Shown: piece by piece, positions 12,394-40,336 of the stretch
Position numbering within the stretch: position 1 is the first letter of the stretch
Layout of the letters: the number at the start of each line of letters is the position of its first letter
Source of the DNA: a virus
Length of the DNA stretch: 43,580 bases
Strand: one strand, 5' to 3'
Virus record (IMG/VR): IMGVR_UViG_3300031539_000090
Location: 1 to 43,580 of that record
The notes under the pieces: generated by a model
The model's input: the letters and a program-made list of their open reading frames with translations, nothing else
Told to the model about the DNA's origin: nothing
The model's database searches: none
Translations under genes and position numbers: made by a program

Positions 12394-12433
12394 GCAAGAA
12401 GTGAAAAACCAATAAATTAAGGAGTAACAAGAA

Positions 12434-12871: not shown

Positions 12872-12886
12872 TAATAGTCTAAATCT

Positions 12887-15059: not shown

Positions 15060-15119
15060 ATGAAAATTCGAGGCATATTAGTCTCGATAATAATTGGGTT
15101 ACTTTTGCCTGGGGGGGCA

Positions 15120-21008: not shown

Positions 21009-21180
21009 AGTGCATTTTTTCGGAAGAAGGATATTTTGTGAGTTAAAACCTACAGATAACCCTGATATGCTCGGAATCGAATTAAGCAAGGTACTTATGA
21101 AGGCAATAACGAACGAAACAACCAAAAAAACAAAAGAGTTACTCAATCCGAAAGGTGCGAAGATAATCCAACCCAATTAA
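20977..21180 (+). CDS. Hypothetical small protein, 67 aa
   Basis: The start lies within the last 32 bases of the previous gene, with GGAGAATGTAAAAG upstream. The peptide combines a beta-rich N-terminus (IPKVHFFGRRIFCELK) and a helical Lys/Thr-rich C-terminus. No recognised family. Confidence 0.55.
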   Translation: MSVMPMIQIPKVHFFGRRIFCELKPTDNPDMLGIELSKVLMKAITNETTKKTKELLNPKGAKIIQPN

Positions 21181-21190
21181 GGAAAGACTA

Positions 21191-21769: not shown

Positions 21770-21780
21770 GGAAGAAGACT

Positions 21781-22674: not shown

Positions 22675-22691
22675 AAACCTGATTCAGACAA

Positions 22692-22773
22692 CTCGCGCAA
22701 GCGAGCCTGATGCTTAGAGGCTAAAGCGGCCTCCGCGAAGCACGCGTTAAGTGTCAGGGGAGCCTGAAAGCTC
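22692..22773 (+). ncRNA. Structured leader RNA before the major capsid gene
   Basis: The 149-bp gap holds several strong helices: CTCGC-GCAA-GCGAG (22692-22705, GNRA loop); a 12-bp stem 22706-22717 with 22747-22758 (three G-U pairs) closing a three-way junction with hairpins 22718-22732 (AGGC/GCCT) and 22734-22746 (CGCG/CGCG); and GAGC/GCTC at 22760-22773. The capsid ATG follows 50 bases later with GGAGAATT as ribosome site. A three-way junction with a GNRA hairpin suggests a functional RNA (translation control, RNA processing or stability). I cannot match it to a known class. Confidence 0.55.
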
Positions 22774-22823
22774 AGATAACTCTCCGAAACGTGAAGTAAG
22801 TAAATACGAATTGGAGAATTATT

Positions 22824-23825: not shown

Positions 23826-23842
23826 AGAAAGGAGGCACTCTT

Positions 23843-24304
23843 ATGGGTGCAGAGACTAATTTAGGCGTATTCAGTGAAAGTCAGGTCATTAACAGCACTG
23901 AAGCGTCCACAAAAGATATAGATTTGGCAATGACTCGCCATCAAATCGGCGTTGGCGTTCCAATCTATATTTGTGTTCGTGTTGCGATAGCTTTTACAGG
24001 CGCTACGAGTGTGGCTATCGCAATGGAAAACGACACCGATTCTGCTTACGGAAGCGCTGTCACGTTCCCCCTTCGGGCTGCTATCGAGTTGGCCGACGGA
24101 CTTTCAACGCTTGGCCAATGGCTTTACAGGGGAACGCTGCCGTATGAATTAACAGAGACGTATTTACAGCTCAAATATACTTTGGTCGGTGCCGAAACTG
24201 TCGGCGCGGTCGATGCGTGGCTGAGTTTACTGCCGCCTTCGGATATTGGCGCTAACGCTCAGGTATGGGCTTCCAATGTAGGCGATCCGGCGGCCCCGGC
24301 ATAA
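23843..24304 (+). CDS. Capsid cement protein (Bbp16-like)
   Basis: The 153-aa beta-rich protein has the pattern of Bbp16-family cement proteins: N-terminal FSESQVINSTEASTKDIDL, then VAIAFTGATSVAIAMENDTDSAYGSA, and a C-terminal LPYELTETYLQLKYTLVGAETVGAVDAWLSL. Such proteins bind the capsid surface at the local axes and strengthen the shell. AAAGGAGG lies nine bases before the ATG. Directly downstream comes the giant solenoid gene. Confidence 0.85.
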   Translation: MGAETNLGVFSESQVINSTEASTKDIDLAMTRHQIGVGVPIYICVRVAIAFTGATSVAIAMENDTDSAYGSAVTFPLRAAIELADGLSTLGQWLYRGTLPYELTETYLQLKYTLVGAETVGAVDAWLSLLPPSDIGANAQVWASNVGDPAAPA

Positions 24305-24318: not shown

Positions 24319-27300
24319 ATGAAAAAGTTAATACTAATAACGATTATGGCCGTTCTTGCCTTCTCTACTCTTGCCGGTGCGGCCTTGACGTACGGCCCTG
24401 AATACTACAGGAAGCGCATTTCAAATGCGGGTTCGGGCTATGCGGACAGCGACCCCGTTTATCTTTTTATGAATGAGGTCGATGAGAACTTAATAAGTTC
24501 GGGCGGGGCGGCGAGTGTCTTGTTCACGCCCGGCACAGCACCTACCGGCGCAGAGGGTCTGGTCTATTACGATGATGCTTCGGACACCTTGATGCTCTAT
24601 TCAGGCGCATCCGGGCCTTGGAAGACTATAGACCTTGCTGGTGCATCAAATCTGGATACGGCCTACAACAACGGAAACACTATAACTGTCGATGGAGACG
24701 CCTTAACTTTTACGGCGGGTGCCGGTACGAATAACGGCGTACTTACGTTAGTCCAGTCGAATACGGGAGCTTATGAAGGTTTGAAGATTACCAATGCCGG
24801 AACTGACCCATCCATTGAGATTGACGGTTCGGGTACTGGTGACGACATTACAGGGACTGGTGATACCTGGACTATTTCAGAGGCAGGTGTCGGTAGTTTT
24901 GTCGGTTTAATCTCAGGTGCTTCCGATATTGTCATGGAGAACTCCGACATCTTCTCGAACGGCACCAATAATACCTTTACGTTCGCCGGTAACGAAGCAA
25001 CTGTCGAAGATTTAAGTATCGGACTTGGTGTAAATACTAATATTGTTACGCTTTCGTCCAGTACCGGTGCTACAACCATAGACTGGGGTGCGATGACGAC
25101 CGCTTCCGGTATGACGACTATCACCGGCGACGCCGCTATCTTTACAATCGGCTCGACGGGCACTTCTGCCGGACATGATGTGATTATTCAACAGGCGGGA
25201 GTTACGGATCAACAGTTGGTTCTCCAGTCATCGGGTAATGCGACAAATGCTCTGAGACTTCTCGCTTCTGCTGCCGGTATTGATATAGACGCTACGGGCA
25301 GTACACTGACTATCACCAATACAGCCGACGGTGCCGACGACGATATTACTATCGAGCAGGACGGAGATCAAAACGCTTCTATCATCTTAACTTCCGATGG
25401 TACGGGCGGCGATGCTATCAGTCTTATCTCATCGTCTGCCACGGGTGATATTAAAGTGGCTTCCGCCGACGAGATAGACATTGACGCTGCATCCACTATT
25501 GATATTGCCATAGCGGGTTTAGCTACTCAGGACTTTATAGTCACCAATACCGGCGGCTCTATTATTATGACCGCCACTGAGGATATTGCGGATGGTATCT
25601 ATCTTCATTCTACTACCGGTGGAATAGATATTGTTGCCGACGGCGCAGCAGCCAAAGACCTTGACCTGACCTGTACGAACGGTTCGGTCATCGTTACGGC
25701 AGGCGAGGCTAATTCCGATGCAATTAAACTCAACGCGAGTGCCGGAGGCGTCAATATAGATGCCCTTGCCGCTTACGATGTGGATATTGCAGGCGGTCAG
25801 GTCTTGATTTCTTCCTTAGACAATGCCGCAAGTGCAATTGCTCTGACAACGAATGTGAATACCTTGGAGACTATTGTCGTCACCAATACCAAAGGAACGG
25901 CAGCAGGCGCAATTACCCTTACCGCAACGGCGGGAGGTGTCGATATTGATGCTGCCGCTGCTAAGGAAATCAATATTGCCGGCGGTAACGTGGCGATTGT
26001 CAATAAGACGGCTGGCGCAACGGCTATTACGGCGATAACCAACGTAGATACTACCGACCAGATAGTCGTTACCAATACCAAAGGCACTAATGAAGCGGCC
26101 ATTGATATTACCGCAACGGCTGGCGGTATCGACATTGACGCCGCTGCCGGTAAAAACGTAGCAATTAACGGCGGTCAAATTCTCATCGAATCGGAAGATG
26201 ATGGAGCAAGTTCCATTCAGTTAAAGACCAACACAGGCAATACCGAGACTATCGTAATTCTCAATAGTCAGGGCGCCGGTGACGACTCTATTAATATTGA
26301 CTCTACCGCAGGCGGTTTGGACGTCGATGTTGCCAAAAGTTTGGCACTTACTTCAAGTGAAGGCGCTCTCGATTCGGTAGTTATCACATCGACCAACGGC
26401 GGTATTGACTTAATTACTACCGGAGCCGTTGCCACGGAAGACATTGACATTACAAGTAGTGCGAGTGTCAATATCACTTCTGCGGAAAACATTGCTGCTG
26501 CGATTGTAATTGCAACAACAGGCGGCGGAGGAGCGGCCGAAACGATTGATATTACCAATAATCAGGGTATTACTTCTTCATTAACGACTGAGACGGATGC
26601 TGCGATTCAACTCGAAGCTACTGTCGGCGGTATTGGTTTGTATTCGGGTTTGAGCGGCGCCGATGCTATCCGCTTAGAGACCGCCGGTGCGGCCGCGCAA
26701 ATGACTTTGCAGGCCATTGCCGGTGTAGGCGCTTCCGCTACCGGAGAAGAAGATGCCGCCATTCAACTTTATGCCCAGGCCGGTGGTATTGGTCTGGCTT
26801 CGGGTCTTGCTGCTGCTGATGCTATTCGCATCGAAGCCCAAGGTGCTAACGGTCAAATAACGATACAGAACAAGTTAGGTATAACCGCTTCTTCTGCAAC
26901 GCAGTTCGACGCATCTATTCAGCTTTACAGCGAGGCAGGCGGTATTGGCTTGCATTCAAAACTGAACGGGGCGGATGCTATCCGTATCGAGGAAGGCGGT
27001 GGTACTGGAGGTACTATCAATATCCACGCCAATACGGGTAACGCCGTTGCCGATGGAGCCGCTTCTATCAATCTTTTGAGCGATGTTGGCGGTATCGGTC
27101 TTAAAGCGACGGGACTGGCAAGTGCTAATGCAATCTGGATTCAGGCTGCCGCAGGCGGTGTTAATATTGACGCTCAGGCAGCTTACGATGTCGATATTGA
27201 CGGGGGTCAGATTTTCCTTACCTCATCTCATAACGTACCGGATGCCATCAAGATTCATTCTGATTCAGGTGCGAATGCGAACATAAACATTCTCAACGAT

Positions 27301-29658
27301 GAATGTACGGGCACGGAAGCAATTACGATTACATCAACTCTTGGCGGTATTGACGTTGACGCCCATGAAGATATAAATATTACTCTTCACGCCGAGAGCG
27401 CCGATGAGGATATTATCCTTTTGACAACCGGAACATCGGATAGTCATATCTCGATTACAGCAGACGGTTCTGACGACAATGCCTTGGCGCTTATTGCAAG
27501 TGTGGCGGGTATCGACATAGACGCTGCCGGCGTACTGACGATGGATGCCGACGACGATATGACGATTACCGTAGCGGCAGAGTCCGATGAGGACTTGACT
27601 ATCCAGTTGCAGAACAATGTCGATGCAAGCATTTTAATTAGCTCTGCGGGAAGCGGAACGGATTCGCTCAGTCTTACAACGGTGACAAACGGCGGCGATA
27701 TTGTTATCAGCTCCAACGACAAAATAGATATGGATTCGACGGGTACGTTTGCCCTGAATGCGGCCGGAGATACCTTGCTGATTCAGGTGGATTCCGACGG
27801 CGCAGACGATGATTTAACTATCAAAGTCGATGGCGATGATGATTCCTCTATCATTCTTGACAGCGACGGTTCCGGCGCCGATGCGATTAGTTTACAGGCT
27901 TCTCATGCAACGACAGGCGGTATTGACGTTGATTTCAAGTCGGGTAACTTTACTCTTACCGGCTCAGGAGCAAGCGCCGATGTAATCGTAGACTGCGACC
28001 TTTTCAGTATAGACGGTACAGGTTCGGCTAATATCACTGTTGCCGCAACTGAAGCCGGTGAAGACCTTACTATCAGTCAAACCGGTACGAATGCTTCGAG
28101 TGTTGAAATTGTATCATCGGGCCGATGTGCGGATGGGATTAAATTGCATTCCAATGGTGATGCAACTTCCGGTATTTACATACATTCTCAAACCGGAACC
28201 GCTGCATCGACAGCGACTGAATCTGATGCCGCTATTCAGCTTTATAGTCAAGTCGGTGGTATAGGTCTTCTGTCGGCTCTTAACGCCGATGATTCTATCA
28301 GGATTGAGACAAACGGCGGCGACGATGAGAATATCACGATACGCGCCAATCAGGGAACCGGAACCGACTCGATTTATATATTGAGCGATGAAGGCGGTAT
28401 CGAGATTGAGGCGACCGCAAGTACGGCGGCAGGCGCAGGGGCATCTGCCGTTCAATTGACCGCTTCGTTGGGTGCTATTGAATTGACTTCGGGATTAGAT
28501 GCTACCAATGCGATTAAGTTGACTGCCAATGGTAATACAAACTCTGATATTAACATCTGGAACGATACCGGTAGTACATCAGATTCGATTAAAATATTAA
28601 GCGACCTTGGCGGTATTGCCGTTACAGCGAGTGACGATGCGATTGTGTTGACGGCAGACGGCGCTACTGTAGGCGATATTACTATTGACGGCGAGAATAA
28701 GGTCACGATTGTTTCAGCCGACCTCGATGCCGAAGGTATTTACATCCACGAGAATTCGACAAGCGGTACGGCCGGCTCGATAAAGATTCATGCCGATAAA
28801 GGTATTGCTGAAGCTACCGGAGCATCTTCGGTAACGCTTCTTAGCGACGTTGGCGGTATCAATTTGAAAGCGGCGGCCTTAACGAGCGAGAGTTCGATTT
28901 GGATTGAGTCCATTGCCGGTGGTGTTAATATAGATGCCGCCGCCGGTAAAGACGTCGATATTGACGGCGGGCAGATTCTTCTCGAAGCCAACCACGATAT
29001 AGCCAGTGCAATTTCCTTAATTACCAATACCGGTACATCCGAGACCATTGTAATTACTAATACTTTAGGCAATGCGACGGGTGCAATCACCTTAGAAGCG
29101 ACTGCCGGAGGTATTTCACTTAGTGCTTTATCTGGAATGGACTTCGGAGAAGGTGCCGTTGTCAATGTTGGCGATATTTCGGTTGATGATGTTATCGCCG
29201 ATGCCAACGACAACGTAGTTCTCAGTGCGGTCAAGATGCTTGTGGTTTCGATTTCCGTCGATGACGATCCCGCTACCGATTTCCAGTATGACAATACTCA
29301 GGAGAACAAAGTAGAACAAGGTATAAGGGTTGGCAGAATTCCAGCCAATTGCATGATTAACTCTGTATTTGTTTTATGTACCGAGACTATTACGGCTGGA
29401 GGTCAATTTGCCACTGAGATTGGTACTGCTACTGGAGGCGATCAGATTTTAACTACTTCGGATTGTGATACCGCTGATGACATTATGGGCACGGCAGCCG
29501 CAGAGATACCGGAAATAGCTGTTACCGGCTCCATTATAGATGTTTACGTTAGTGGCACTCCGACTACAAATGACTTTGATGAAATAACGGCAGGTAGTTG
29601 GGACGTTTGCATCGTCTACACGGATTACGCCGCTGCATTAGCGCAGACGGGTACTTAA
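24319..29658 (+). CDS. Giant secreted beta-solenoid repeat protein, 1779 aa
   Basis: AAGGAGATAAGC precedes the ATG at 24319. A classical signal peptide (Lys-Lys start, hydrophobic core, TLAGA cleavage site near residue 21) is followed by a 100-residue entry domain. Then come about 1500 residues of Asp/Ile/Thr/Gly/Ala repeats with recurring units such as TAGGVDIDAAA, AINGGQILIE, TIVVTNTKG and AAIQLYAQAGGIGL. This is a long right-handed beta-solenoid with turns dominated by Asn/Asp/Gly. The last 160 residues form a separate non-repetitive domain (from NVVLSAVKMLVVSI). The gene lies in the head/tail region, so it is probably a virion surface or fibre-like protein, yet it has an export signal. 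A long fibre, decoration or host-surface protein are all possible. Confidence 0.8.
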   Translation: MKKLILITIMAVLAFSTLAGAALTYGPEYYRKRISNAGSGYADSDPVYLFMNEVDENLISSGGAASVLFTPGTAPTGAEGLVYYDDASDTLMLYSGASGPWKTIDLAGASNLDTAYNNGNTITVDGDALTFTAGAGTNNGVLTLVQSNTGAYEGLKITNAGTDPSIEIDGSGTGDDITGTGDTWTISEAGVGSFVGLISGASDIVMENSDIFSNGTNNTFTFAGNEATVEDLSIGLGVNTNIVTLSSSTGATTIDWGAMTTASGMTTITGDAAIFTIGSTGTSAGHDVIIQQAGVTDQQLVLQSSGNATNALRLLASAAGIDIDATGSTLTITNTADGADDDITIEQDGDQNASIILTSDGTGGDAISLISSSATGDIKVASADEIDIDAASTIDIAIAGLATQDFIVTNTGGSIIMTATEDIADGIYLHSTTGGIDIVADGAAAKDLDLTCTNGSVIVTAGEANSDAIKLNASAGGVNIDALAAYDVDIAGGQVLISSLDNAASAIALTTNVNTLETIVVTNTKGTAAGAITLTATAGGVDIDAAAAKEINIAGGNVAIVNKTAGATAITAITNVDTTDQIVVTNTKGTNEAAIDITATAGGIDIDAAAGKNVAINGGQILIESEDDGASSIQLKTNTGNTETIVILNSQGAGDDSINIDSTAGGLDVDVAKSLALTSSEGALDSVVITSTNGGIDLITTGAVATEDIDITSSASVNITSAENIAAAIVIATTGGGGAAETIDITNNQGITSSLTTETDAAIQLEATVGGIGLYSGLSGADAIRLETAGAAAQMTLQAIAGVGASATGEEDAAIQLYAQAGGIGLASGLAAADAIRIEAQGANGQITIQNKLGITASSATQFDASIQLYSEAGGIGLHSKLNGADAIRIEEGGGTGGTINIHANTGNAVADGAASINLLSDVGGIGLKATGLASANAIWIQAAAGGVNIDAQAAYDVDIDGGQIFLTSSHNVPDAIKIHSDSGANANINILNDECTGTEAITITSTLGGIDVDAHEDINITLHAESADEDIILLTTGTSDSHISITADGSDDNALALIASVAGIDIDAAGVLTMDADDDMTITVAAESDEDLTIQLQNNVDASILISSAGSGTDSLSLTTVTNGGDIVISSNDKIDMDSTGTFALNAAGDTLLIQVDSDGADDDLTIKVDGDDDSSIILDSDGSGADAISLQASHATTGGIDVDFKSGNFTLTGSGASADVIVDCDLFSIDGTGSANITVAATEAGEDLTISQTGTNASSVEIVSSGRCADGIKLHSNGDATSGIYIHSQTGTAASTATESDAAIQLYSQVGGIGLLSALNADDSIRIETNGGDDENITIRANQGTGTDSIYILSDEGGIEIEATASTAAGAGASAVQLTASLGAIELTSGLDATNAIKLTANGNTNSDINIWNDTGSTSDSIKILSDLGGIAVTASDDAIVLTADGATVGDITIDGENKVTIVSADLDAEGIYIHENSTSGTAGSIKIHADKGIAEATGASSVTLLSDVGGINLKAAALTSESSIWIESIAGGVNIDAAAGKDVDIDGGQILLEANHDIASAISLITNTGTSETIVITNTLGNATGAITLEATAGGISLSALSGMDFGEGAVVNVGDISVDDVIADANDNVVLSAVKMLVVSISVDDDPATDFQYDNTQENKVEQGIRVGRIPANCMINSVFVLCTETITAGGQFATEIGTATGGDQILTTSDCDTADDIMGTAAAEIPEIAVTGSIIDVYVSGTPTTNDFDEITAGSWDVCIVYTDYAAALAQTGT

Positions 29659-29673
29659 TAGAAAGGAAAGACT

Positions 29674-29955
29674 ATGAAAGAATGGAAAACTATTGTGGTA
29701 GTGGTTCTTATCGCACTGCTCGTTGCAGCATTGGTCTTTATGGCCGCAGACAAGAACCAGACGAACGCAGCGCCTGAAGAAGTGGCGTTGTCTAATTTGA
29801 AAGAACGAATAGGGCAGTTGAAAGTCCTGAAAGAAGAACAGACTTTGACGCGGGACATTATGGTGATTCAGCAGCAAATAAGAGACCTTAGCGCCGTTGC
29901 TCCGATTCAATCTGTAATTCCGAAAGAGCGACTGCCGGAAGAATTACAGGAATGA
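29674..29955 (+). CDS. Membrane-anchored coiled-coil protein, 93 aa
   Basis: After MKEWK a hydrophobic helix (TIVVVVLIALLVAALVFMAA) spans the inner membrane; the exported remainder is a coiled coil (LSNLKERIGQLKVLKEEQ) with a Pro-rich end. This is the layout of an i-spanin or of a membrane tether. It directly follows the giant exported solenoid gene (15 bp gap), so a membrane partner for it is conceivable. AGAAAGGAAAGACT precedes the ATG. The function is inferred from shape only. Confidence 0.65.
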   Translation: MKEWKTIVVVVLIALLVAALVFMAADKNQTNAAPEEVALSNLKERIGQLKVLKEEQTLTRDIMVIQQQIRDLSAVAPIQSVIPKERLPEELQE

Positions 29956-30020
29956 CTATGGATACATGGTTTTCCTTCGGGATGGGAGGGGGTCGAAAGA
30001 CCCTCCCTATCCTTATTTAA
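29952..30020 (+). CDS. Possible 22-aa peptide
   Basis: The ORF starts in an ATGA overlap with the preceding stop and encodes MTMDTWFSFGMGGGRKTLPI plus two residues. Short Gly-rich peptides are found between virion genes of podoviruses. Its second half is encoded by a strong hairpin, which weakens the case. Confidence 0.35.
   Translation: MTMDTWFSFGMGGGRKTLPILI
29984..30007 (+). terminator. GAAA-tetraloop hairpin between tail genes
   Basis: GGGAGGGGGTC, GAAA and GACCCTCCC form a strong stem with a GNRA-type loop and a two-base bulge. A short T-containing stretch (TATCCTTATTT) follows, so it may be a weak terminator or an mRNA processing/stability element. The next gene starts 22 bases later with TTAAGGAG. 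Confidence 0.5.
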
Positions 30021-30029
30021 GGAGTAAAG

Positions 30030-30389
30030 ATGCAGACTGTAAGAAAAGTCAGTTTAGACCAGCAGAGTTGGGATTCGGGCGCGAGCGAAAAGGCTACGAC
30101 TTACAGGAAAGTCAATGGTAAGTGCGAGCAGATAGCGGTCAAAATCAGTGTGAACACGAACACCGTAGCTGGCAAAGTTTCTATATATGATTCCAACGGC
30201 GGTAAGCTCTACGAAAAGACGAGCATCCCGACCGGAACGACTACTATCTATTACGGCAATAGTTTAGGCTCGACTGACTGTGACTTCAAATCCTTCCTCT
30301 GCGACGGCAAATTGACGGTAGAAATAACACCTGACGGCGATCCCGGCACTACGGGCGTGAAGATAGATGTTGACCTTTATGTGAGGTAA
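30030..30389 (+). CDS. Probable virion beta-sandwich protein, 119 aa
   Basis: AAGGAGTAAAG precedes the ATG. The 119-residue protein is beta-rich with no signal peptide (KVSIYDSNGGKLYEKTSIPTG; KLTVEITPDGDPGTTGVKIDVDLYV). It resembles small phage structural or decoration proteins. Located among tail/fibre genes, it may be a tail or fibre component. No named family. Confidence 0.6.
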   Translation: MQTVRKVSLDQQSWDSGASEKATTYRKVNGKCEQIAVKISVNTNTVAGKVSIYDSNGGKLYEKTSIPTGTTTIYYGNSLGSTDCDFKSFLCDGKLTVEITPDGDPGTTGVKIDVDLYVR

Positions 30390-30392
30390 AAG

Positions 30393-30800
30393 ATGAGACG
30401 CTTTACGTGCTTTTTACTTTTATGCGCCTTGAGCGGAACGGCTTTAGGCGGGTCGATATGTCCGTTTACGACAATCTTCATGCGTACTTTGTTAGATGAT
30501 GCAACGGCTTCGGCGGCGAGAACGACTTTGGGACTTGGTACGACTGATTCTCCGACGTTTGTGAAAGTCACGTTATCCGGCAATGAAATCAACGTAGCTA
30601 CGTCGCAGATACCGAGTTCGGCAACTGCGGCGGGAAATGCCGGTGATATTGCGTGGGGGTCGGATTATATCTATATATGCGTGGCCGGTAATACGTGGAA
30701 ACGGTCGGCCTTGACTACATGGGGCGGTCTACCGGAAAACGTAATCTTTGCCGGAGAAAACGTCATTTTTGCCGGAGAACAAGTTATATATTATCCATAA
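30393..30800 (+). CDS. Secreted tail-fibre-like protein, 135 aa
   Basis: A signal peptide (basic MRRF, hydrophobic core, ALGG) is followed by MRTLLDDATASAARTTLGLG, a sequence typical of phage tail-fibre shafts, and by GDIAWGSDYIYICVAGNTWKR, another recurrent fibre segment. The C-terminus holds a short tandem repeat (ENVIFAG, ENVIFAG, EQVIYY) made by duplicated DNA near 30737-30785. Tail-fibre homologues are normally cytoplasmic, so the signal is unexpected. Confidence 0.65.
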   Translation: MRRFTCFLLLCALSGTALGGSICPFTTIFMRTLLDDATASAARTTLGLGTTDSPTFVKVTLSGNEINVATSQIPSSATAAGNAGDIAWGSDYIYICVAGNTWKRSALTTWGGLPENVIFAGENVIFAGEQVIYYP

Positions 30801-30809
30801 GGAACGATT

Positions 30810-31784
30810 ATGAAAAAGCTATTGATTTTACTCATATTGTTAATGTTTTCAGCAACAGTCTTAGCAGACCTTACAGGAACGGAAGGTCTTGCGATTGACC
30901 TTTCAAGCGCAGGAGCCGGGACTGATATTACTATTGCCTTCGACCCTACCGAGCTTTTAGGAAACCGTACATGGGGTGACGCTTCTACCGATACGATAGT
31001 CTGGACGTGGAACAAGGCCACGGGGACAGACCCTACGATTACCTTTAACAGCGGTTCGATAGCCTTACCGGCCTTGACATTAGTTACGCCATTGGCCCTG
31101 AATTACGGCGGGGCCGGGGCGGACATTTCAGGCTGGTCGGGGATTGTTGCTGTTTCCGGTGGGTCTGCCGTAGAAGTAGACACATTTGCGGAGATTGATA
31201 CGCAAATTGCCGACAAAGCCCTTGTGAATAAAGCCGATGGTGCGGTGTGGCTCGGCATACATGATTACGGAGGGGCGGATTTGGAACTACCTCAAGCATC
31301 ACCCGCCGTTCCCGGCGTGGATGGTGGCATTGAGATTGACTTCACAGACGGCACGGTAGTCATTCAGCACGGAGCGGCACATGCCGAATTAGCGGCTTCC
31401 ACTGACGTTGTGATAGGTAAGCTCATAAAGTCATGGTCTGGTACAATCTTCGAGCCTGATAATGTGAACGATGTACTGACCGTCAAGGCAATCAATTCTA
31501 TCCAGTATCCTCACGGTGTTGTTATTACAGCCGTTTATCTCGGCGTCTCATCGGATACGGGATACGTATTAACAGTCCAGAATTTCGACGACTTTGATAC
31601 GATAAACGCTGCGAACGGGACGATAGACACAGTGACTTATTCCGCCGATACGACGGGAGAAATCATAGATACGACACCAACATACGCAACGATAGCGGCG
31701 GGGCAGATAATTATGATTAGCATTCCGGCTACAGATGTGGACTGGATACATTTTGAGATTTATTACTACGAACCGGCGGCATAA
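30810..31784 (+). CDS. Secreted tail/fibre-like protein, 324 aa
   Basis: The start follows AAGGAACGATT. Residues 1-19 are a clear signal peptide (Lys-Lys, Leu/Ile core, cleavage near VLA-D). Then come a Gly/Thr/Ala/Asp-rich beta part with phage-fibre-like phrases (TWNKATGTDPTITFNSGSIA, LNYGGAGADISGW) and a C-terminal beta-sandwich (KLIKSWSGTIFEPDNVN, then DVDWIHFEIYYYE). It is probably a distal tail or fibre component. The family is not named. Confidence 0.65.
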   Translation: MKKLLILLILLMFSATVLADLTGTEGLAIDLSSAGAGTDITIAFDPTELLGNRTWGDASTDTIVWTWNKATGTDPTITFNSGSIALPALTLVTPLALNYGGAGADISGWSGIVAVSGGSAVEVDTFAEIDTQIADKALVNKADGAVWLGIHDYGGADLELPQASPAVPGVDGGIEIDFTDGTVVIQHGAAHAELAASTDVVIGKLIKSWSGTIFEPDNVNDVLTVKAINSIQYPHGVVITAVYLGVSSDTGYVLTVQNFDDFDTINAANGTIDTVTYSADTTGEIIDTTPTYATIAAGQIIMISIPATDVDWIHFEIYYYEPAA

Positions 31785-31799
31785 ATGGGGGTTATTAAA

Positions 31800-32606
31800 A
31801 TGAAACGATTACTGATTCTTTATTTTGTATTTTGTATTCTGTGTTCTGTTTCTTTGGGCGATAACGACTTTGGGGATGTTAACTGTGTCGCTCTTTGGAG
31901 ACTTGAGAACGGAGCGCTTACGGTCGATTCAAAAGGCGGCAACACCCTTACAAATGACGCAGTTGTGGCAGATGCAGTAAATTATAAAGAAGGGGAAGCG
32001 TCTGGAGACTTTGAGTGGAGTTCGTCGGCCTTTATGACCATAGCTGACGCTGATCTTGATGCCGGATTTCCTCTCAAGGATGGCGATTCAACAAAAAAAA
32101 TATCTGTATGTGCTTGGATTATGCCGGAAAGTTTACCTACCGAAGGTTGCTTTTTTGCAAAATGGGACCATGCTGGTTTGAAAAGGCAATTGCAAATACT
32201 ACAACTTGGAAGCCCTAGCGATATAAGAGTTTATATAGGTTATAATGGCGGTGTATCCTATGAAGAAGTAGTTACACTCAATACGAACATGGTCGTTAAC
32301 CAGTGGTATCACATCGGTTTTACATTTCAAGATTCAGACAAATCATGGCGTCTTCGCGTTTGGGACGAGTCTGGCGAAAGTGTGATGGAGGATACTGGCA
32401 ATACGATAAATAATATAAACATAGAAGATTCATTTTTTACGTTAGGTTGTGTATCGGATGGGATAAATCATTTTGATGGCCGCATAGATGAGGTGGTGGT
32501 TTTTAATGATATTCTAACTTCTGATGAAATCGACCAGATAAGGGTAGGCACTTACGGAGTTGCTGCCGGTGGCGGTGGTCAGGTGATAATCATATATGAA
32601 GACTAA
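31800..32606 (+). CDS. Secreted LamG/concanavalin-like protein, 268 aa
   Basis: The start at 31800 has a G-run nine bases upstream (an earlier in-frame ATG at 31785 is that G-run's own codon). A signal peptide (MKRLLILYFVF core, cleavage near SLG-D) is followed by a LamG-type jelly roll: VALWRLENGALTVDSKGGNTLT, KKISVCAWIMPES, WYHIGFTFQDSDKSWRLRVW and FDGRIDEVVVFNDILTSDEI. LamG domains bind glycans or proteins at cell surfaces, so a receptor-binding role is reasonable. Confidence 0.82.
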   Translation: MKRLLILYFVFCILCSVSLGDNDFGDVNCVALWRLENGALTVDSKGGNTLTNDAVVADAVNYKEGEASGDFEWSSSAFMTIADADLDAGFPLKDGDSTKKISVCAWIMPESLPTEGCFFAKWDHAGLKRQLQILQLGSPSDIRVYIGYNGGVSYEEVVTLNTNMVVNQWYHIGFTFQDSDKSWRLRVWDESGESVMEDTGNTINNINIEDSFFTLGCVSDGINHFDGRIDEVVVFNDILTSDEIDQIRVGTYGVAAGGGGQVIIIYED

Positions 32607-33591
32607 AATTATAATGTGTTCTATATTCTTCGTTTTGTGTTCTGCTGTGCAGGGAGCTAATGAAATCTGCGCCGTCGCGCCGGGCATTACAAACGCTTAT
32701 GGCGTCGTAAGAGAACCGGATGGCGATGTCTGGTACGTCACAGGGCAGGTTTTCGAGGTGTGGGGAACGGGTGCTCGAACGGCTGCGGATTACGACATTG
32801 CATTGGTGGACAAGTCGGGCGGTATGTTAGTTGGGGATATGGATACGAGTATTTCAGCCGGATACTATCACATAATAACACATTATCGGGTGGGTGCTAA
32901 TCCCGCCGATACCGACCCTGCCGTGTGGCAGGAATACGGATACTGGAGCGGAACGGTTTGGCAACCCTATACACTAAAGACTATCGAAGATAAAGTTGAT
33001 GATTTACCAACCGCTGCCGGGACAGCCGATGCCGTATGGGACGAGGCTATGGCCGGACATACTGGCGAGGCCACTTTCGGCGGTGAATTACAAACACTCG
33101 ACCCGAACCTTACTTTGGTATTGGCGGATACGGCCGAGCTTCAAACCGACTGGCACGATGGCGGGCGGCTCGACCTTCTAATAGACGCTATTAAGGCGGA
33201 GACCGACCTAATAACTATCCATTCGACTACGGTAGCCGAGGCCAACGATGCCAACGAATTCATTCTGACTGATGGTATAGGTACAGATGTTAACGATTCC
33301 TGGAACTATTCGGTGATTATCATTCAGGACGCCGACGACGGCCACTGGGAATCGAGATTCATTTACGAATGGGACAGCGATAAGGAAGTTGAAGTCGATG
33401 AGACTCTTGGCTTCATTCCGGCGGCGGGTGACGTTGTTCATATCATGGGGACTGGATACGGGGGATTTTTGTACCGGATACTTTCGACCATTCAGCAGGC
33501 AAGAGGCGTTCTGAATGTTATTGATACTACGGGAACTTCAAGAGCGGTTGGGGGCGTAACTCGAATAGACGCTATGGGTGACGACCCGTGA
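32596..33591 (+). CDS. Secreted tail-fibre/baseplate-like protein, 331 aa
   Basis: The protein starts with a signal peptide (KTKIIMCSIFFVLCSAVQG). After a beta domain it has AVWDEAMAGHTGEATFGGEL and DWHDGGRLDLLIDAI, a pattern I know from phage fibre and adaptor proteins where a helical segment trimerises. The C-terminal region (YSVIIIQDADDGHWESRFI, GYGGFLYRILSTIQQARG) is typical of phage structural proteins that carry beta domains. The start overlaps the previous gene's end, with only a weak ribosome site. Confidence 0.7.
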   Translation: MKTKIIMCSIFFVLCSAVQGANEICAVAPGITNAYGVVREPDGDVWYVTGQVFEVWGTGARTAADYDIALVDKSGGMLVGDMDTSISAGYYHIITHYRVGANPADTDPAVWQEYGYWSGTVWQPYTLKTIEDKVDDLPTAAGTADAVWDEAMAGHTGEATFGGELQTLDPNLTLVLADTAELQTDWHDGGRLDLLIDAIKAETDLITIHSTTVAEANDANEFILTDGIGTDVNDSWNYSVIIIQDADDGHWESRFIYEWDSDKEVEVDETLGFIPAAGDVVHIMGTGYGGFLYRILSTIQQARGVLNVIDTTGTSRAVGGVTRIDAMGDDP

Positions 33592-33610
33592 CACAATTCC
33601 TGGGGGGATT

Positions 33611-34486
33611 ATGGCGGATAATGAAGAAAAACGGGCCTTATGCAACAGGGCGATAACAATTCTAACTGCCGGTATGACCGCTCAGGCGGGGATTCTCCAT
33701 ACAGAGATAACCGATGAGCAGTTCGCCGACTATACTTCGGTAACGACCGACCAACAGATAAAGCTTTTATGCTTTTTGTACGAGCCGGTCTTATTGAAGG
33801 TCATTCTCGATATTCAGCCGGACTTCGCTAAACAGTTCGCAGACTTGGGGAATGAGATTTGTATCAATAAAGAGGTAGGCGACTGGGGACTTCTATTCGA
33901 GTTGCCGAGTAACTTTATAGAAGATGAAAATGCGTTAATTGCCCAAATCAGTCAGGCCAATAGGAAAACTAAATATGACTGCAAGATTCTGACTTTCGAC
34001 GGTTACGCCCATGTCGTTAAGGGTACGGACGAACAGTCGTGGTATTGTAAGACCGACCATACGGCGGCGGCGGCCAATAAACCGATTACCGGTGCAGATT
34101 ACGCAACCTATTGGACTCTCTATAATACCGACGACTCTTACGGTGCTGATTGGGTATCTGGATGGTCTTACAAAGCCTCTCAGGACGGCAAATTATTAGC
34201 GGCCAATTCCTATTCCAATCTTGATGGTGACAGTGCGTATATAGAGTATCTCGCCTACATTCAGGCCGGTATTTCCGACAAGCCCGCGTATTATCCCAAT
34301 GCCTTTAAGAACGCCTTCTGTACGAGACTTGCAGCTGAGATGGCGGAGGATGGTCACGATTACGAGCGCAGAAGAAAACTTATGGAGGAATACGAGTTAA
34401 TTGCCAAGCCGCGGGTGTGGCAGGTTCAGAACAGGAACGATTTCGAGGAAACAAGACCGACATTTTTAGAGTCAAGGACGATATGA
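33611..34486 (+). CDS. Tail tubular protein A-like (gp11-type) with inserted domain
   Basis: GGGGGG lies just before the ATG at 33611 (a GTG at 33578 is inside the previous gene). The first 120 residues follow the tail-tube A pattern (LCNRAITILTAG, LCFLYEPVLLKVILDIQPDFAKQF, WGLLFELPSNFI) that forms the ring below the portal. Residues 130-190 are an inserted segment with YAHVVKGTDEQSWYCKTDH, similar to carbohydrate-binding-like inserts in phage proteins. The C-terminal helix (NAFKNAFCTRLAAEMAEDG) is conserved in the family. It has no signal peptide, unlike its neighbours. Confidence 0.78.
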   Translation: MADNEEKRALCNRAITILTAGMTAQAGILHTEITDEQFADYTSVTTDQQIKLLCFLYEPVLLKVILDIQPDFAKQFADLGNEICINKEVGDWGLLFELPSNFIEDENALIAQISQANRKTKYDCKILTFDGYAHVVKGTDEQSWYCKTDHTAAAANKPITGADYATYWTLYNTDDSYGADWVSGWSYKASQDGKLLAANSYSNLDGDSAYIEYLAYIQAGISDKPAYYPNAFKNAFCTRLAAEMAEDGHDYERRRKLMEEYELIAKPRVWQVQNRNDFEETRPTFLESRTI

Positions 34487-37011
34487 TGAAAAGGTTCATA
34501 CTTATATTTATATTCTGTACGGCAGCGATGGGCGCGAGCCTTACGCAAACAATTTCTCTCAATAGTTTCAACGCCGGTGAACTCTCGCCTCTTATGAACG
34601 CACGGGTGGACTATCCGAAATATAAACTCGGCGCAAAGACTTTAGAGAACATGATAGTAAGGGCGCAAGGGCCAATATCGAGGAGGCCGGGCACTAAATA
34701 CATCGCTTCGGTAAAAGACGATACGGACGCTACAAGACTGATTCCCTTCGAGTATTCGACTATCTACGCCTATATTGAAGAAGTAGGCGACAAATACGCG
34801 AGGTTCTACCGTACCGTTGATGGTGTAGCCGGTCCGATTGTAACTACTTATTCTGCATGGGCCACATCCACGGCTTACAGTGTAGGTGCGTTAGTGACAC
34901 ACAGCGGTTACTATCGGTGTTTGGTAGCCCATACATCAGATGATTGGGATACCGATTTAACTGCCGTCAAATGGGCAGTAACCGCCGGGGCTACCGATCT
35001 TGCCTACGAGATAGTCACACCGTGGGACGAAAGCGACGTCTTTGAGCTTCAATTCTGTCAGGATGCCGAGACGATGAGAATTGTCCATCCCGACTACGAA
35101 CCCTACAAACTCACGAGGACTGGTCATACCTCATGGACGTGCACGCCGATAAACTCTACCACCGGCCCTTTTCTCGATGAGAATAACGATACTACGTGGA
35201 CTCTGACATCAAATAAGACTACGGGTACGGGCGCTACTATTACTTCAACGGACGACCTTTTCTTGCCCGACCCAAACTACGTAGGTGCGTTGTTTCAAAT
35301 AAGTCATTCCCTTGCCGCCGGTTCGGTAACGAAGTTATTTTGGTCGTCTGGTGATTCAACTTCGGATTCGATTACAGTCCAGAAGTACCGGTACTACGAT
35401 GTCATTACAAGCGGTTCATGGGCGGGCACTTTCAAAATACAAAGGTCTTACGGTGACGATGTTTGGGAGGATGTCTACAGTATCCGCTATACGTATAACG
35501 GGAATATCCAATATTCCGGGCAGGAACTTGAAAAGACCTGCCTTTACCGAATGAAAATGGTAGACCAGTATTTAACAAGCCACAACCTACGGCATTACGA
35601 GGGTATGTGCTACGGCAATTTTAACGCTCGCGGCTTTATGAATAACGGAGTGGTCGAGATAACCAGTGTTACGAATACGAAGGTCGCTACTGCCGATATA
35701 AAGATAGCTATAGGAGCGGCCGATACTACTACTTATCACTGGTCGGAGGGTGCATGGAGCAATTACCGGGGCTGGCCGAGGACGGTCGAGCATCACGAGC
35801 AGAGAGTCATTTACGGCGGCTCAGCATCTTATCCCCAGGCTATATGGGCCTCTATTATAGCGACTCAGGACTCCGATTACGATGACTTCACTGCCAATAC
35901 CGAATCCGATTCCACAGGGAATTTAGGAGGCCCGGATGATATTGCGTGGACATATACATTGCCGGGCATGAATCCAATTCAATGGATGAAGTCAACCGAA
36001 TATTTAATGATAGGCACGACTTCGGGGGTAGGGAAATTAGGCCAGCCGGACAAACCAATTACTCCCAACTTCCCCCCGACTTTTCGTATCCAGAACCATA
36101 ACGGGTGCGCTTATATTCAGCCGAAAGGCGCGGTTGACGCCCTTCTCTACATAGAGAGGGGCGGTCAGAAAGTCAGGGAACTCGCCTTTGCATACTCTTC
36201 AGATAAATACGAAGCGCCTGATATGACCGTCTTGGCCGAGCACATAACAGGCGATGGCATAGTCGAGATAGATTTTCAGAACCGGCCGGAACCTATCTTA
36301 TGGTGCATCAGGGAAGATGGTCAGTTGCTTTCATTCACCTATCACAGAAAGCACGATGTCCTTGCGTGGTCGAGGAACGATACGGGCATTGCAGACAAGT
36401 TCAAATCGGTAGCGGTGATACCCGGTACTAACGAGGACGAACTTTGGGCGATAGTTGACAGGACGGTAGATACTTACGTTGAGCAGTTCCAGCCGTGGGA
36501 CTGGGGGACAGACCAGAACGACTGCTACTTTGTGGATTGTGCGGTCGATGATATAACGAATTTGATTCATATCGAGGGCGAGACGGTCGCTCTATTTGCG
36601 GACGGCCGGCCGATAGGCACTTACACGGTCTCAGGAGGCGAGATAAGTCCATCGGGTAGTTATACCTATACTACAGTGGGGCTTCCTTATACATCCGTTT
36701 TCGAGACAATGCCGCTTACAGCCTCATCGAGTCATGGTTATATAAACGCAGAATATACAAGGATAGCATCTCTCATTGTTGACTTTTACAAGACTTTAGG
36801 CTGTCACATAGGCCCGGATGCAACCAATACCCACGATTTCAAGTTCTCCAACGATTCTTTCGCCACGACTTTGGATGTTGTAACAGACTTTAAGGTGTCA
36901 CCGTATCTGTGGGGAACGAAACGGTCGCCGACAATCTATTTTCAGGAATCCGATCCTATCCCTCTGACTATCAGGGGCGTTTATCCGAGAGTTATAGTAA
37001 GTTATGATTAA
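34483..37011 (+). CDS. Tail tubular protein B-like with N-terminal signal peptide, 842 aa
   Basis: AAGGA lies five bases before the ATG at 34483, whose codons begin a signal-like peptide (MKRFILIFIFCTAAMGA). Directly after it comes the usual beginning of this tail-tube/nozzle family: ISLNSFNAGELSPLMNARVDYPKYKLGAKTLENM and QGPISRRPGTKYIA. Near residue 130 there is a carbohydrate-binding-like insert (AYSVGALVTHSGYYRCLVAH). The centre has LGGPDDIAWTYTLPGMNPIQWM and the conserved YLMIGTTSG. Residues about 624-842 are duplicated in the next gene. The protein forms the lower part of the tail tube. The family assignment is good; the signal peptide is the odd part. Confidence 0.85.
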   Translation: MMKRFILIFIFCTAAMGASLTQTISLNSFNAGELSPLMNARVDYPKYKLGAKTLENMIVRAQGPISRRPGTKYIASVKDDTDATRLIPFEYSTIYAYIEEVGDKYARFYRTVDGVAGPIVTTYSAWATSTAYSVGALVTHSGYYRCLVAHTSDDWDTDLTAVKWAVTAGATDLAYEIVTPWDESDVFELQFCQDAETMRIVHPDYEPYKLTRTGHTSWTCTPINSTTGPFLDENNDTTWTLTSNKTTGTGATITSTDDLFLPDPNYVGALFQISHSLAAGSVTKLFWSSGDSTSDSITVQKYRYYDVITSGSWAGTFKIQRSYGDDVWEDVYSIRYTYNGNIQYSGQELEKTCLYRMKMVDQYLTSHNLRHYEGMCYGNFNARGFMNNGVVEITSVTNTKVATADIKIAIGAADTTTYHWSEGAWSNYRGWPRTVEHHEQRVIYGGSASYPQAIWASIIATQDSDYDDFTANTESDSTGNLGGPDDIAWTYTLPGMNPIQWMKSTEYLMIGTTSGVGKLGQPDKPITPNFPPTFRIQNHNGCAYIQPKGAVDALLYIERGGQKVRELAFAYSSDKYEAPDMTVLAEHITGDGIVEIDFQNRPEPILWCIREDGQLLSFTYHRKHDVLAWSRNDTGIADKFKSVAVIPGTNEDELWAIVDRTVDTYVEQFQPWDWGTDQNDCYFVDCAVDDITNLIHIEGETVALFADGRPIGTYTVSGGEISPSGSYTYTTVGLPYTSVFETMPLTASSSHGYINAEYTRIASLIVDFYKTLGCHIGPDATNTHDFKFSNDSFATTLDVVTDFKVSPYLWGTKRSPTIYFQESDPIPLTIRGVYPRVIVSYD

Positions 37012-39502
37012 ACTACTTATAATATTATTTTTATGCCTAACACCTGAGCAGAAAGCGTGGGAAAACATTCAGTTACCTAACGATTCCGTTCTTGCATGGT
37101 CGCGCCATAAGACGGGATACAATCAGGATGATAAGTTTCTTTCCGTAGCGACTATTCCCGGATCAGGTGGAGAGGATGAGGTCTGGGTGATAGTCGAAAG
37201 GACTATAGATGGTGTAAAGCAAGTCAATGTCGAGCAATTCCAGCCCCGCGACTTCGGAGACCAGAACAATGCTTGGTTTGTCGATTGTGGCTTAGTGGGA
37301 TGGAGCGATGGCGGTGGTGGGTTAATTAACATAATTGAACCTACCGATGATGTTACGGTGGGCGAATATCCGACTTTGCAGGAACTTACTGACGATGAGA
37401 TACCTGATACCCCGGCAGAGCCGGAAGATACGGCGCTTGTCGGAGCAACGAACGTCAATGATTACGCCGGATTACAGGCTATGACCGGATCAGGTCATTA
37501 TAATATCACTGGCGATATAGATTTGGAAGGTGAAACGTGGATTCCGATAGATGATTTCAGTGGGGTTATAGAAGGTAATGGTTTTACAATTTCAAATTTA
37601 ACTCATACCGCAGAAGCATCGGCATTCGATACCGGCATGTTCAATAATCTACTTTCCGGCGCGGAAATACGCAATTTGACATTGAAAGATTTTGCCATTA
37701 CAGGTGATTTTGGGACGGGTGCTTTGGCAGGTAACGGAGTTGGGGATATTGTAATTAAAGATGTTAATGTAACAGGTTGCACAATTGAGGGTTATTGCTA
37801 TCTTGGTGCACTCGTTGGTTTTCTGGAAGAAATAACTTCCGGTGGTATTTATGATTGTGATGCAATTGATTGTACTATATCGGGTACGGACTGGTCAGGC
37901 GGCTTGTGTGGATATATTGAAATTGATAACGATGCAACAGATGACTTTAATATTGTCAACTGTAGTGTTGCTGACGGCACTCTTACAGTATTGGATGGTA
38001 CTTATTGCGGTGGCTTGGTCGGTTCGGGAGAGGGAACAATCCATACTACCCCGGATAGATATATCACTTTTCATACATGCAGTTCCTCTATGAACATAAT
38101 AGTAGGGGACACAGATGAAGCGCAGTCTCTTGGCGGATTTATTGGCCTTGCAGACTGGTGCGATTTCATCAGTTGTTCCGCAACAGGTAATATAGATTAT
38201 ATAGGTTCAGATAGTGGCGGCATTCCTTATGGAATAGGCGGTTTTGTCGGATTTGAAACAGGCGTAGGCACGTATATAAATTGCTATTCAACCGGCGATA
38301 TAACAATGGACGCAGAAAACTTTTCTCTAATGCAGCTCATTGGAGGCTTTGTCGGAAAATGCGACCAGACAGCAACTCAGATATTTACTCGATGCTATTC
38401 AACTGGTGATATTACTATGACAAATGTTGGCAGTATGTCATGGCATGGAGTTGGTGGTTTTATGGGAGGCTATCTTGGTACTGGCGGAACAATTAGAAGA
38501 TGCTGGTCTGAAGGCGATATTAGTTTAGACGACGAAGGAGTGCCGGGAGTAACATACAAAGGCGGACTTGGAAGTTTTATAGGCATGATATGGCATAGCG
38601 ATACCGGGGCAGGAACAATCGAAAATTGCTATGCCTGGGGCAGTATAACAATCGAGACACTGAACGAGAACGATGATGATTTGGGCGTTAGCGGCTTTTT
38701 GGGAAGTATAGCAAAATTAGGGACATACACATTGACGAATTGCTACGATGCCCAGACCGATACGGCGACAGGTTCGGGATATACAAGTCAAATCCCAACG
38801 GGAGATTATTCCAAAGGTTTGGTCGGATGGCTTACGACGTCTGTTACTGTAACCGATACTGCAATATTCTGGGATACAGAGACATCAGGTATAGACGAAG
38901 ATGATTATGCCGTTGGCCATATAACGACATGGATGCAGACACAGGCGAACTACGAGGCCGCCGGTTGGGACTTCGATACGATATGGGTTTTGGATGAAGT
39001 GACTACCCCTGGCGAGCCTGGCGACAGCGAACCTAATACATGGAGCGGCATGGATCATGCTATTGGTATGGAAGTATGTGTTTACGCCGATGGCCGACCG
39101 ATAGGAGTTTATACTGTAGATGCCAACGGTGTCTTGGATTTAGGTGCGGAATACGAGACTGTAATAGCCGGTATAAACTATTATTCAACTTATGAGTCTT
39201 TTCCCTTAGTCACGGAGACCAACTTCGGTTTGAGTACCGGCCAGCAGGCGAGGATAATGGATATTACAATAGACTTCTACGAGTCTTTAGGCTGTCACGT
39301 GGGGGTTGACAGGACTAACAGTACCGACTGGATTTTTAGTAAAGACGATTTCGCAACGAGGATCGACCTTGTGACCGAATACAAAAAAGGTTCTTTCCTG
39401 TGGGGCACTACGCGCGAGCCGATAGTCTATTTGTGGGAATGGGAGCCTGTGCCTCTAACCGTGAGGGCAATATATCCGAAAATGGGGGTAACAAGTGATT
39501 AA
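37004..39502 (+). CDS. Tail-tube B C-terminal paralogue with inserted GLUG-repeat adhesin domain, 832 aa
   Basis: After a short hydrophobic start (IKLLIILFLCL) residues 28-103 align with the C-terminal part of the preceding protein (VLAWSRHKTGY, KFLSVATIPG, VNVEQFQPRDF, FVDCG). Residues about 683-832 match its end (YADGRPIGVYTV, ITIDFYESLGCHVG, WGTTREPIVYL, PLTVRAIYP). Between them lies a region of about 580 residues of repeated GGFVG-type and CYSTGDIT units, which is the GLUG-motif beta-helix of bacterial adhesins. The gene looks like a duplicate of the tail-tube tip that captured an adhesin module; receptor binding is likely. It overlaps both neighbours by eight bases. Confidence 0.8.
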   Translation: MIKLLIILFLCLTPEQKAWENIQLPNDSVLAWSRHKTGYNQDDKFLSVATIPGSGGEDEVWVIVERTIDGVKQVNVEQFQPRDFGDQNNAWFVDCGLVGWSDGGGGLINIIEPTDDVTVGEYPTLQELTDDEIPDTPAEPEDTALVGATNVNDYAGLQAMTGSGHYNITGDIDLEGETWIPIDDFSGVIEGNGFTISNLTHTAEASAFDTGMFNNLLSGAEIRNLTLKDFAITGDFGTGALAGNGVGDIVIKDVNVTGCTIEGYCYLGALVGFLEEITSGGIYDCDAIDCTISGTDWSGGLCGYIEIDNDATDDFNIVNCSVADGTLTVLDGTYCGGLVGSGEGTIHTTPDRYITFHTCSSSMNIIVGDTDEAQSLGGFIGLADWCDFISCSATGNIDYIGSDSGGIPYGIGGFVGFETGVGTYINCYSTGDITMDAENFSLMQLIGGFVGKCDQTATQIFTRCYSTGDITMTNVGSMSWHGVGGFMGGYLGTGGTIRRCWSEGDISLDDEGVPGVTYKGGLGSFIGMIWHSDTGAGTIENCYAWGSITIETLNENDDDLGVSGFLGSIAKLGTYTLTNCYDAQTDTATGSGYTSQIPTGDYSKGLVGWLTTSVTVTDTAIFWDTETSGIDEDDYAVGHITTWMQTQANYEAAGWDFDTIWVLDEVTTPGEPGDSEPNTWSGMDHAIGMEVCVYADGRPIGVYTVDANGVLDLGAEYETVIAGINYYSTYESFPLVTETNFGLSTGQQARIMDITIDFYESLGCHVGVDRTNSTDWIFSKDDFATRIDLVTEYKKGSFLWGTTREPIVYLWEWEPVPLTVRAIYPKMGVTSD

Positions 39503-39851
39503 ATTAAAACCATATCTACCGACAGACGCCGTGATTTTGACCGGCGACAGGATGTGCGCCGAATTAGCCCAATTGAATCAAATATCAGGGCCGGGCTTTA
39601 CCTTATGTGACGGTAACAGGCCTTTGGCTTCAGGCGGTGTGAGGATATACGGGGTAGCCGAGGCGTGGTTCGTACTCGGCGATGAGGCTAAGGAAAAGTA
39701 CCTTTTGATGGTAATGCGTAAGATTAAAAAAGAGTTAGAGAAAATCCAGCGTCGAGAGAAACTTTATAAAATCTACGCCGAGGATACGAAGAGCGAGAAT
39801 TTCCTTCAGCATCTGAGATTCGTAAAGAAGAACAATATATTCGTGAGGTAA
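39495..39851 (+). CDS. Internal virion protein gp13-like (acetyltransferase-like fold)
   Basis: The 118-aa protein has the layout of T7 gp13-like internal virion proteins: PTDAVILTGDRMCAELAQLN, then FTLCDGNRPLASGGVRIY, GVAEAWFVLGDEAKE and a long helix. The strands and AWFVLG segment recall a GNAT acetyltransferase fold, but a clear catalytic site is not visible. In relatives the protein helps assembly of the internal core. It overlaps the previous stop by eight bases. Confidence 0.75.
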   Translation: MIKLKPYLPTDAVILTGDRMCAELAQLNQISGPGFTLCDGNRPLASGGVRIYGVAEAWFVLGDEAKEKYLLMVMRKIKKELEKIQRREKLYKIYAEDTKSENFLQHLRFVKKNNIFVR

Positions 39852-39855
39852 TAAG

Positions 39856-40332
39856 ATGGCGTTAGCAACAGCCGGAATGATGATCGCCGGTACGGGCATG
39901 GGCGTGGCGGGTTCTATCATGCAGGGCAGGGAAGTCAACAGGCAGGCCAGAGACGCCGCCCGTGAGAGGCTATATGAGGCCGCCGTACTTAAAACAGCGG
40001 CGGGCGAAAAAGCACACGGACTCGCACAGGAGCGGTCTTATGCAATGGGTTCGGCAAGGGCCACTGCTGCAAAAGCCGGTGTCAAAGGTACGGGTTCTGT
40101 AAAGACCCAAAGGAATCGAATATCCGCGATGTACACACAGAAAATAGCGAATATGGGTTTGGAGACGGGCCATAGGATAGGCTTTTTGGAACGGGAGGCC
40201 GAAGAACTCAAACGCAGGGGCAGGAGTGCAAAAAGGGCTGGTTATTGGGGTGCGGGTGCAAGTCTATTAAGCGGTGGTGCTCAATTCGGAAGTACATTTA
40301 AATCCGGCGGCGGCAAACTATTATTCCGGTAA
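39856..40332 (+). CDS. Internal virion protein gp14-like
   Basis: The 158-aa protein has an N-terminal Gly/Ala/Met-rich helix (ATAGMMIAGTGMGVAGSIMQ) followed by a helical Arg/Ala-rich body (REVNRQARDAARERLYEAAV) and a Gly-rich end (GYWGAGASLLSGGAQFGS). This matches gp14-type core/ejection proteins that insert into the outer membrane on infection. Position after the gp13-like gene and before the gp15-like gene supports it. A start at 39856 follows GAGGTAATAAG. Confidence 0.8.
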   Translation: MALATAGMMIAGTGMGVAGSIMQGREVNRQARDAARERLYEAAVLKTAAGEKAHGLAQERSYAMGSARATAAKAGVKGTGSVKTQRNRISAMYTQKIANMGLETGHRIGFLEREAEELKRRGRSAKRAGYWGAGASLLSGGAQFGSTFKSGGGKLLFR

Positions 40333-40336
40333 GATT

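Follow-up and report, generated by a model that had tools for sequence, protein, structure and literature searches.

Predicted cleavable Sec signals were identified on the nozzle and fibre-type proteins encoded in the late operon of virus record G000 (43,580 bp; hereafter the window, meaning the whole stretch of DNA analysed), and it is probable that the parts of this virion are sorted to two compartments, with the distal tail exported through Sec, trimmed, and joined to DNA-filled heads after the membrane has been breached. What the sequence shows directly is that the signals exist, are conserved and are limited to distal virion parts, and that their cleavage sites fit. The signals persist past more than 40 % amino-acid divergence and large changes in G+C content and co-occur within genomes, and these comparative tests support the original prediction that distal parts of the tail are first secreted or retained at the inner membrane and assembled afterwards; from them we infer the order of export followed by assembly.

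Signal peptides in the late operon

The late operon runs in the order terminase, portal, capsid, Bbp16, fibre-type block, adaptor, nozzle, nozzle paralogue and head/ejection-side genes, and an IMG/VR contig of 56 kb (L004) encodes late-region proteins identical to those of the window. Large terminase, portal and capsid are all encoded in the window, which is not that of a filamentous (membrane-extruded) phage. We called signal peptides with a transparent rule-based score calibrated on annotated E. coli K-12 genes, taking gene starts from our own caller. In this calibration 13 of 15 Sec substrates were detected (OmpA scores 12.7), together with 3/3 lipoproteins, 0/2 Tat substrates and 3/12 inner-membrane proteins; two of the 40 cytoplasmic proteins were called, both below 7.5, and none at a score of 10.

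Six window proteins, at 24319, 30393, 30810, 31800, 32596 and 34483, score between 11.8 and 15.2, about the range of OmpA and FimH, and their leaders all combine a basic n-region with a hydrophobic core free of charges and a small-x-small (A/V-x-A-type) cleavage site. That these six, which the original prediction had named, carry real Sec/SPase I signals is well supported by the calibrated scores. All of the starts named there are present, with plausible ribosome-binding sites at most of them. Reading the six leaders and 31 nozzle leaders revealed no lipobox of the form L-[ASTVI]-[GAS]-C. Lipobox-like sites were seen elsewhere, at window position 8253 and at 1912 in the related contig L243.

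Five of the six signals fall in the block of fibre-type genes (24319-33591), all on the plus strand. The first gene (24319..29658; score 14.1) encodes a repetitive fibre-like protein of 1779 aa with the signal MKKLILITIMAVLAFSTLAGA, predicted to be cleaved before ALTYGPEYYRKR, after which comes a Y..xYY-type mature N-terminal motif that is also found in the related contigs L005, L007 and L041. This protein is built of GGVNIDAAAAYDVDIDGGQI-type repeats and its length varies strongly, positional counterparts having 447, 278 and 241 aa. It is followed by a small protein (29674..29955, +) with the N-terminal membrane anchor MKEWKTIVVVVLIALLVAALVFMA that had been predicted (the L243 protein in the equivalent position has a lipobox-like VAGC), and by a small tail-cluster protein (30030..30389, +) that lacks a signal, as do its counterparts by position in L005 (4935) and L030 (1254, 1605). 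The remaining signals belong to a tail-fibre related protein (30393..30800; phrog_17312, 1.5e-10; score 11.8; MRRFTCFLLLCALSGTALG before GS), a fibre-region protein (30810..31784; score 15.2; MKKLLILLILLMFSATVLA before DL), a LamG/concanavalin-like lectin (31800..32606; PF13385, 5e-17; score 13.2; MKRLLILYFVFCILCSVSLG before DN) and the protein immediately 5′ of the adaptor gene (32596..33591; score 13.0; MKTKIIMCSIFFVLCSAVQG before AN). Counterparts of the last carry signals in L005, L007 and L243, and also in L030 via a downstream ATG.

No signals were found on the plus-strand genes from portal to Bbp16, intervening genes included (18967..24304), which encode the portal (18967; PF12236), the capsid (22824; PF20911 GP7) and Bbp16 (23843; PF21190), on the head-proximal adaptor or tail tube A (33611..34486, +), or on a head/ejection-side trio (39495..41848, +) made up of a protein in the GNAT position (39495), a gp14-like protein (39856; phrog_418) and one in the gp15 position (40337). 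The claim that head-side proteins lack signals therefore stands for these genes, although the labels 'scaffold' and 'gp13-15-like' used in it were partly positional guesses. A candidate signal on the terminase ORF (15060-16727; start at 15060 or 15120) was rejected, being absent from L005 and L041 and the true start likely being 15120; the 15060 start probably adds a 20-residue hydrophobic in-frame extension ahead of it. Upstream of the portal gene, two membrane proteins with the identical N-terminus MIIKTLIKISFVLFIACLLFWLVYFIGLDSEPNEP (17142-17633 and 17898-18440) lie on either side of another membrane protein; no clear match was seen in databases, and the arrangement is possibly a duplicated lysis cassette.

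A tail nozzle with an added signal

The protein at 34483..37011 (+) is firmly identified as a podovirus tail nozzle (tail tube B, gp12-like) by its full-length family and fold match and its operon position. It matches phrog_376 at 2.8e-154, and the nozzle of Cobetia phage Carin-1 (8ck1_A) is its best match both by Foldseek on an AlphaFold2 model with a pLDDT of 85 (E 7.7e-53) and by profile (1.2e-207), with LME-1 (9efk) next and T7 gp12 further down. The gene lies directly 3′ of the adaptor gene in the portal-capsid-adaptor operon. Nozzles usually start at SFNxGELSP and have no export signal, a trait that is not strictly defining and from which 34483 departs; its signal MMKRFILIFIFCTAAMGA, ahead of SLTQTISLNSFNAGELSP, scores 13.0, and the SD sequence AAGGA stands 4 bases 5′ of the ATG. 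Together these bear out the proposal of a tail-tube family member with a signal and ribosome-binding site added upstream, the signal being 18 residues long.

An internal start could in principle give two products per gene, a signal-bearing form exported for another role (e.g. superinfection block or cell-surface binding) and a shorter form for the virion. There is an in-frame ATG at 34528, the only one closer to SFNAGELSP, and the nozzle of L028 has an ATG at the mature start, but both lack an SD sequence, and no ATG, GTG or TTG is present there in L027 or L043, nor between signal and motif in L005. We consider this reading improbable.

Residues 125-157 of the window nozzle form a CBM5/12 module, a lectin-type insert; the L041 nozzle (10004-12943) has a LamG domain at residues 631-773, and the L109 nozzle has a long insert at a different place. 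The next gene (37004..39502, +) encodes a paralogue of the C-terminal part of the nozzle with a Glug-type insert and a weak hydrophobic leader. This leader has a basic and hydrophobic start and no predicted cleavage site, so its earlier description as a weaker signal was correct; its orthologues score 10.4 (L005) and 12.0 (L243). In the window, L005 and L243 the paralogue is encoded separately and has its own leader, whereas in L030 it is part of a single polypeptide of 1,450 residues with one N-terminal signal, a natural experiment that agrees with a signal replacing the start Met.

Conservation of the signals in related contigs

The arrangement in the window recurs in L005 (G+C 0.61, 51 % identity) and L007 (G+C 0.59, 53 % identity), in which fibre-type proteins and nozzle carry signals and the capsid, the protein in the Bbp16 position and the adaptor do not. 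Orthologues at about 50-57 % identity and different G+C content keep their signal peptides as the letters of these drift. An initial scan for relatives, with the window, L005 and L007 as queries, yielded 80 relatives; nozzle signals were found in about 18 loci, versus 79 with a plain start, typically M(A/P)KxSxxQxSFNAGE. An initial scan of genome contigs gave no match. A second round with two further alignments added 19 signal-bearing nozzles and five more whose signal apparently starts at AUU (L181 ~851, L185 ~6001 and L229 ~6001, where the 3′ end of the adaptor gene overlaps an AGGAGG-like SD sequence) or at AUA (L183 ~2702 and L179 5983), making a non-AUG start on a structural gene possible in these five. 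The comparison with related contigs that the original prediction had proposed thus returned about 40 diverged contigs with a signal-bearing nozzle, one of them from a Planctomycetota MAG. Mistaken start codons were rejected as an explanation, since alternative ATG, GTG or TTG starts gave no plain-nozzle relative a signal. A disulphide motive was likewise set aside as not convincing (cysteine 0.78 vs 0.59 % in signal-bearing and plain nozzles, two columns enriched).

Fibre genes might also have been captured from host secreted proteins and have retained signals without present function. Domains often seen in secreted proteins of bacteria (LamG, CBM and Glug) do occur in the fibre and nozzle region. 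Gene capture alone, however, cannot account for the nozzle and the phrog_1640 tailspike of related phages, virion families whose ordinary relatives have no signal and to which one has been added exactly at the start, and the signals persist while their letters drift; we regard it as very unlikely.

Signals are sorted by gene class and genome

Counting plus-strand genes other than the nozzle that score at least 10 and have no second membrane helix, signals were present in 38 of 202 genes in phages with a signal-bearing nozzle versus 9 of 902 in plain-nozzle relatives (odds ratio 23, p 1e-21, for rows that are not independent of one another). Among the new loci, 17 of 19 contigs with a signal-bearing nozzle had another signal-bearing gene versus 6 of 98 plain ones, and four of these six belong to the AUU/AUA-start cases. 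Within the signal-bearing phages the distal parts carry signals (nozzle 19/21, tailspike domain 4/4), and the head side (portal 0/12, capsid 0/14, Bbp16 0/9, adaptor 0/15) and ejection side (GNAT 0/11, gp14 1/12, gp15 0/8, gp16 0/8) together yield one signal in 89. In plain phages no nozzle (0/111) and one spike in 35 has a signal.

This spike belongs to L068, which has signals on its fibre genes and spike and none on its nozzle, showing that signals on the fibres do not entail one on the nozzle. L079 and L108 (Omnitrophota MAG) have a plain nozzle with two signal-bearing proteins upstream (about 5800-8780). L068, L079, L108 and L082 appear to represent an intermediate state. A genome-wide spread of signals was rejected, as none of the remaining genes called in the L005 contig, beyond the tail module, had one.

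Predicted cleavage restores the mature N-terminus

A cleavage site could be assigned in 30 of 31 distinct signal-bearing nozzles, with A (23), G (6) or S (1) at position -1 and mostly A or V at -3. Predicted mature nozzles have a mean of 9.5 residues before the F..GE motif, compared with 10.0 including Met in plain nozzles, an agreement that is not fully independent because distance to the motif was one of the criteria in choosing the site. Signal-bearing phrog_1640 spikes are found in L041, L044, L073 and L093, located after the large ejection protein, and none lies inside the window. In these, position 3 of the profile corresponds to residue 22 in L044 and residue 21 in L093, and cleavage is predicted, without reference to the profile, after residues 20 and 19 respectively. 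The mature length of the nozzle and the profile position of the spike indicate that, in phrog_376 nozzles as in phrog_1640 tailspikes, which are unrelated families, the signal takes the position of the start Met.

The signals could instead take these proteins to the inner membrane where, uncleaved or slowly cleaved, they stay anchored and organise tail assembly on its cytoplasmic or periplasmic face. The protein at 29674 is a real anchor in the same cluster, and some leaders are long or weak (37004 and L005 7237). Against this, a cleavage motif can be placed in nearly every nozzle, the mature length equals the N-terminus of signal-less relatives, and an uncleaved leader would sit on N-terminal domains that bind the virion. 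Anchoring is accordingly unlikely, though it is the strongest of the alternatives to export followed by trimming.

Phylogeny and hosts

In a quick-method tree of nozzles trimmed of their N-termini, signal-bearing sequences form two groups, one of L027, L028, L050 and L073 and a larger one that includes the window; the starred branches of this tree require at least two gains or losses of the signal. The signal-bearing nozzle in the Planctomycetota MAG contig JABMRO010000035.1 (L109) is sister to that of the viral contig L054. It adjoins a Cache-HAMP-HisKA kinase and an IS110-like transposase fragment, and no other phage gene was recognised in the 7.4 kb, from which the nozzle appears to be a remnant or domesticated. 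Because it lies in a Planctomycetota MAG, the L109/L054 branch probably infects Planctomycetota. Nozzle relatives were found in 10 of 392 Planctomycetota genomes, and among those with a readable start only L109 has a signal, which suggests that the trait belongs to the phage lineage and does not simply come with the host. A simple host effect was rejected on these grounds and also because both nozzle and spike are plain in zth2-2, a phage from a Lentisphaerae strain in which non-lytic phage release has been reported (PMC11361711).

Particles might also leave by a non-lytic or envelope-associated route, with the distal tail added as they cross the envelope and not at lysis. Five common endolysin families gave no match in 12 signal-bearing contigs of 38-62 kb, but only three of 12 signal-less control contigs matched three of those families, and contigs may be incomplete. 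The control set is thus not different enough for the missing endolysin to be informative, and it was rejected as a sign of non-lytic exit. Nor was any exit machinery seen, and we consider such a route to have little likelihood.

Assembly in two compartments

In the textbook view, tailed-phage assembly is cytoplasmic and the finished particle awaits lysis. Our preferred model is instead a likely two-compartment virion, with a cytoplasmic core of head, adaptor and ejection proteins and periplasmic nozzle, fibres and spikes, joined after loss of the membrane barrier or across it. The cytoplasm would be the site of synthesis and assembly for head, portal, adaptor (tail tube A) and ejection proteins, while the nozzle, its paralogue and the fibre-like proteins, with the tailspike in relatives, would be made with cleavable Sec signals and cross the inner membrane. 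Signal peptidase I would trim the exported parts to the N-terminus of their signal-less relatives, and they would fold outside the cytoplasm. When the inner membrane opens at lysis, the distal tail would meet DNA-filled, adaptor-bearing heads at the adaptor/nozzle joint. Translocation, cleavage and the time and place of joining, after the breach rather than at the membrane, are what we infer from the sequence.

The boundary between signal-bearing and signal-free proteins falls between adaptor and nozzle. The adaptor of podophage PhiM1 is attached to the portal, and by-product heads have portal and adaptor but no nozzle or fibres, some of them being DNA-filled (PMC11440229). Taken together, these suggest that heads with adaptor would mature in the cytoplasm and that the two halves would join at the breach. 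Difficulties for the model are how filled heads would stay closed until an exported nozzle is added, the leader at 37004, which has no clear cleavage site, and L068, whose nozzle lacks the signal that its fibre genes and spike carry. The lysis step is unsupported, since no known endolysin family was found in the 12 signal-bearing contigs. If secretion of nozzle and spikes comes first, virion assembly would be completed outside the cytoplasm; a basic rule of phage morphogenesis would become testable, the lineage would be a naturally occurring example of tail parts that are secreted, and infectivity would be predicted to require both the Sec machinery and the signal peptidase of the host.

Comparison with known systems

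We know of no tailed phage with Sec signals on structural proteins, and a search of open-access full text returned no report of any. The original prediction that no standard podovirus does this agrees with that search and with the 111 plain nozzles outside the signal-bearing set. Sec signals have been reported as absent from studied phage proteins (PMC6199706; PMC10698182), and the absence of a signal peptide has been taken as support for a phage origin (PMC6199706). If the present reading is correct, a signal peptide is no evidence against a role in the virion.

The window nozzle resembles podovirus nozzles (phrog_376; Carin-1 8ck1, LME-1 9efk and T7 gp12) in whole-length profile, predicted fold and the order portal-capsid-Bbp16-adaptor-nozzle, and differs from them in its predicted cleavable Sec signal, its lectin-type insert and the separate gene for a C-terminal paralogue. 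Likewise, the signal-bearing relatives share the phrog_1640 tailspike/fibre anchoring domain and its genomic place with ordinary phages, whose proteins start at the domain (MT(V/I)SS... type) where the relatives have exchanged the start Met for a signal. Coat proteins of filamentous phages (M13 pIII and pVIII) have cleavable Sec signals and are assembled from the membrane or periplasm; in contrast, the present phage is tailed and icosahedral, encodes terminase, portal and capsid, and has signals only on the distal tail. Tailed phages do export lipoproteins, SAR endolysins and spanins, which are not structural parts of the virion; these have the use of Sec in common with the window proteins but, unlike them, are non-virion proteins.
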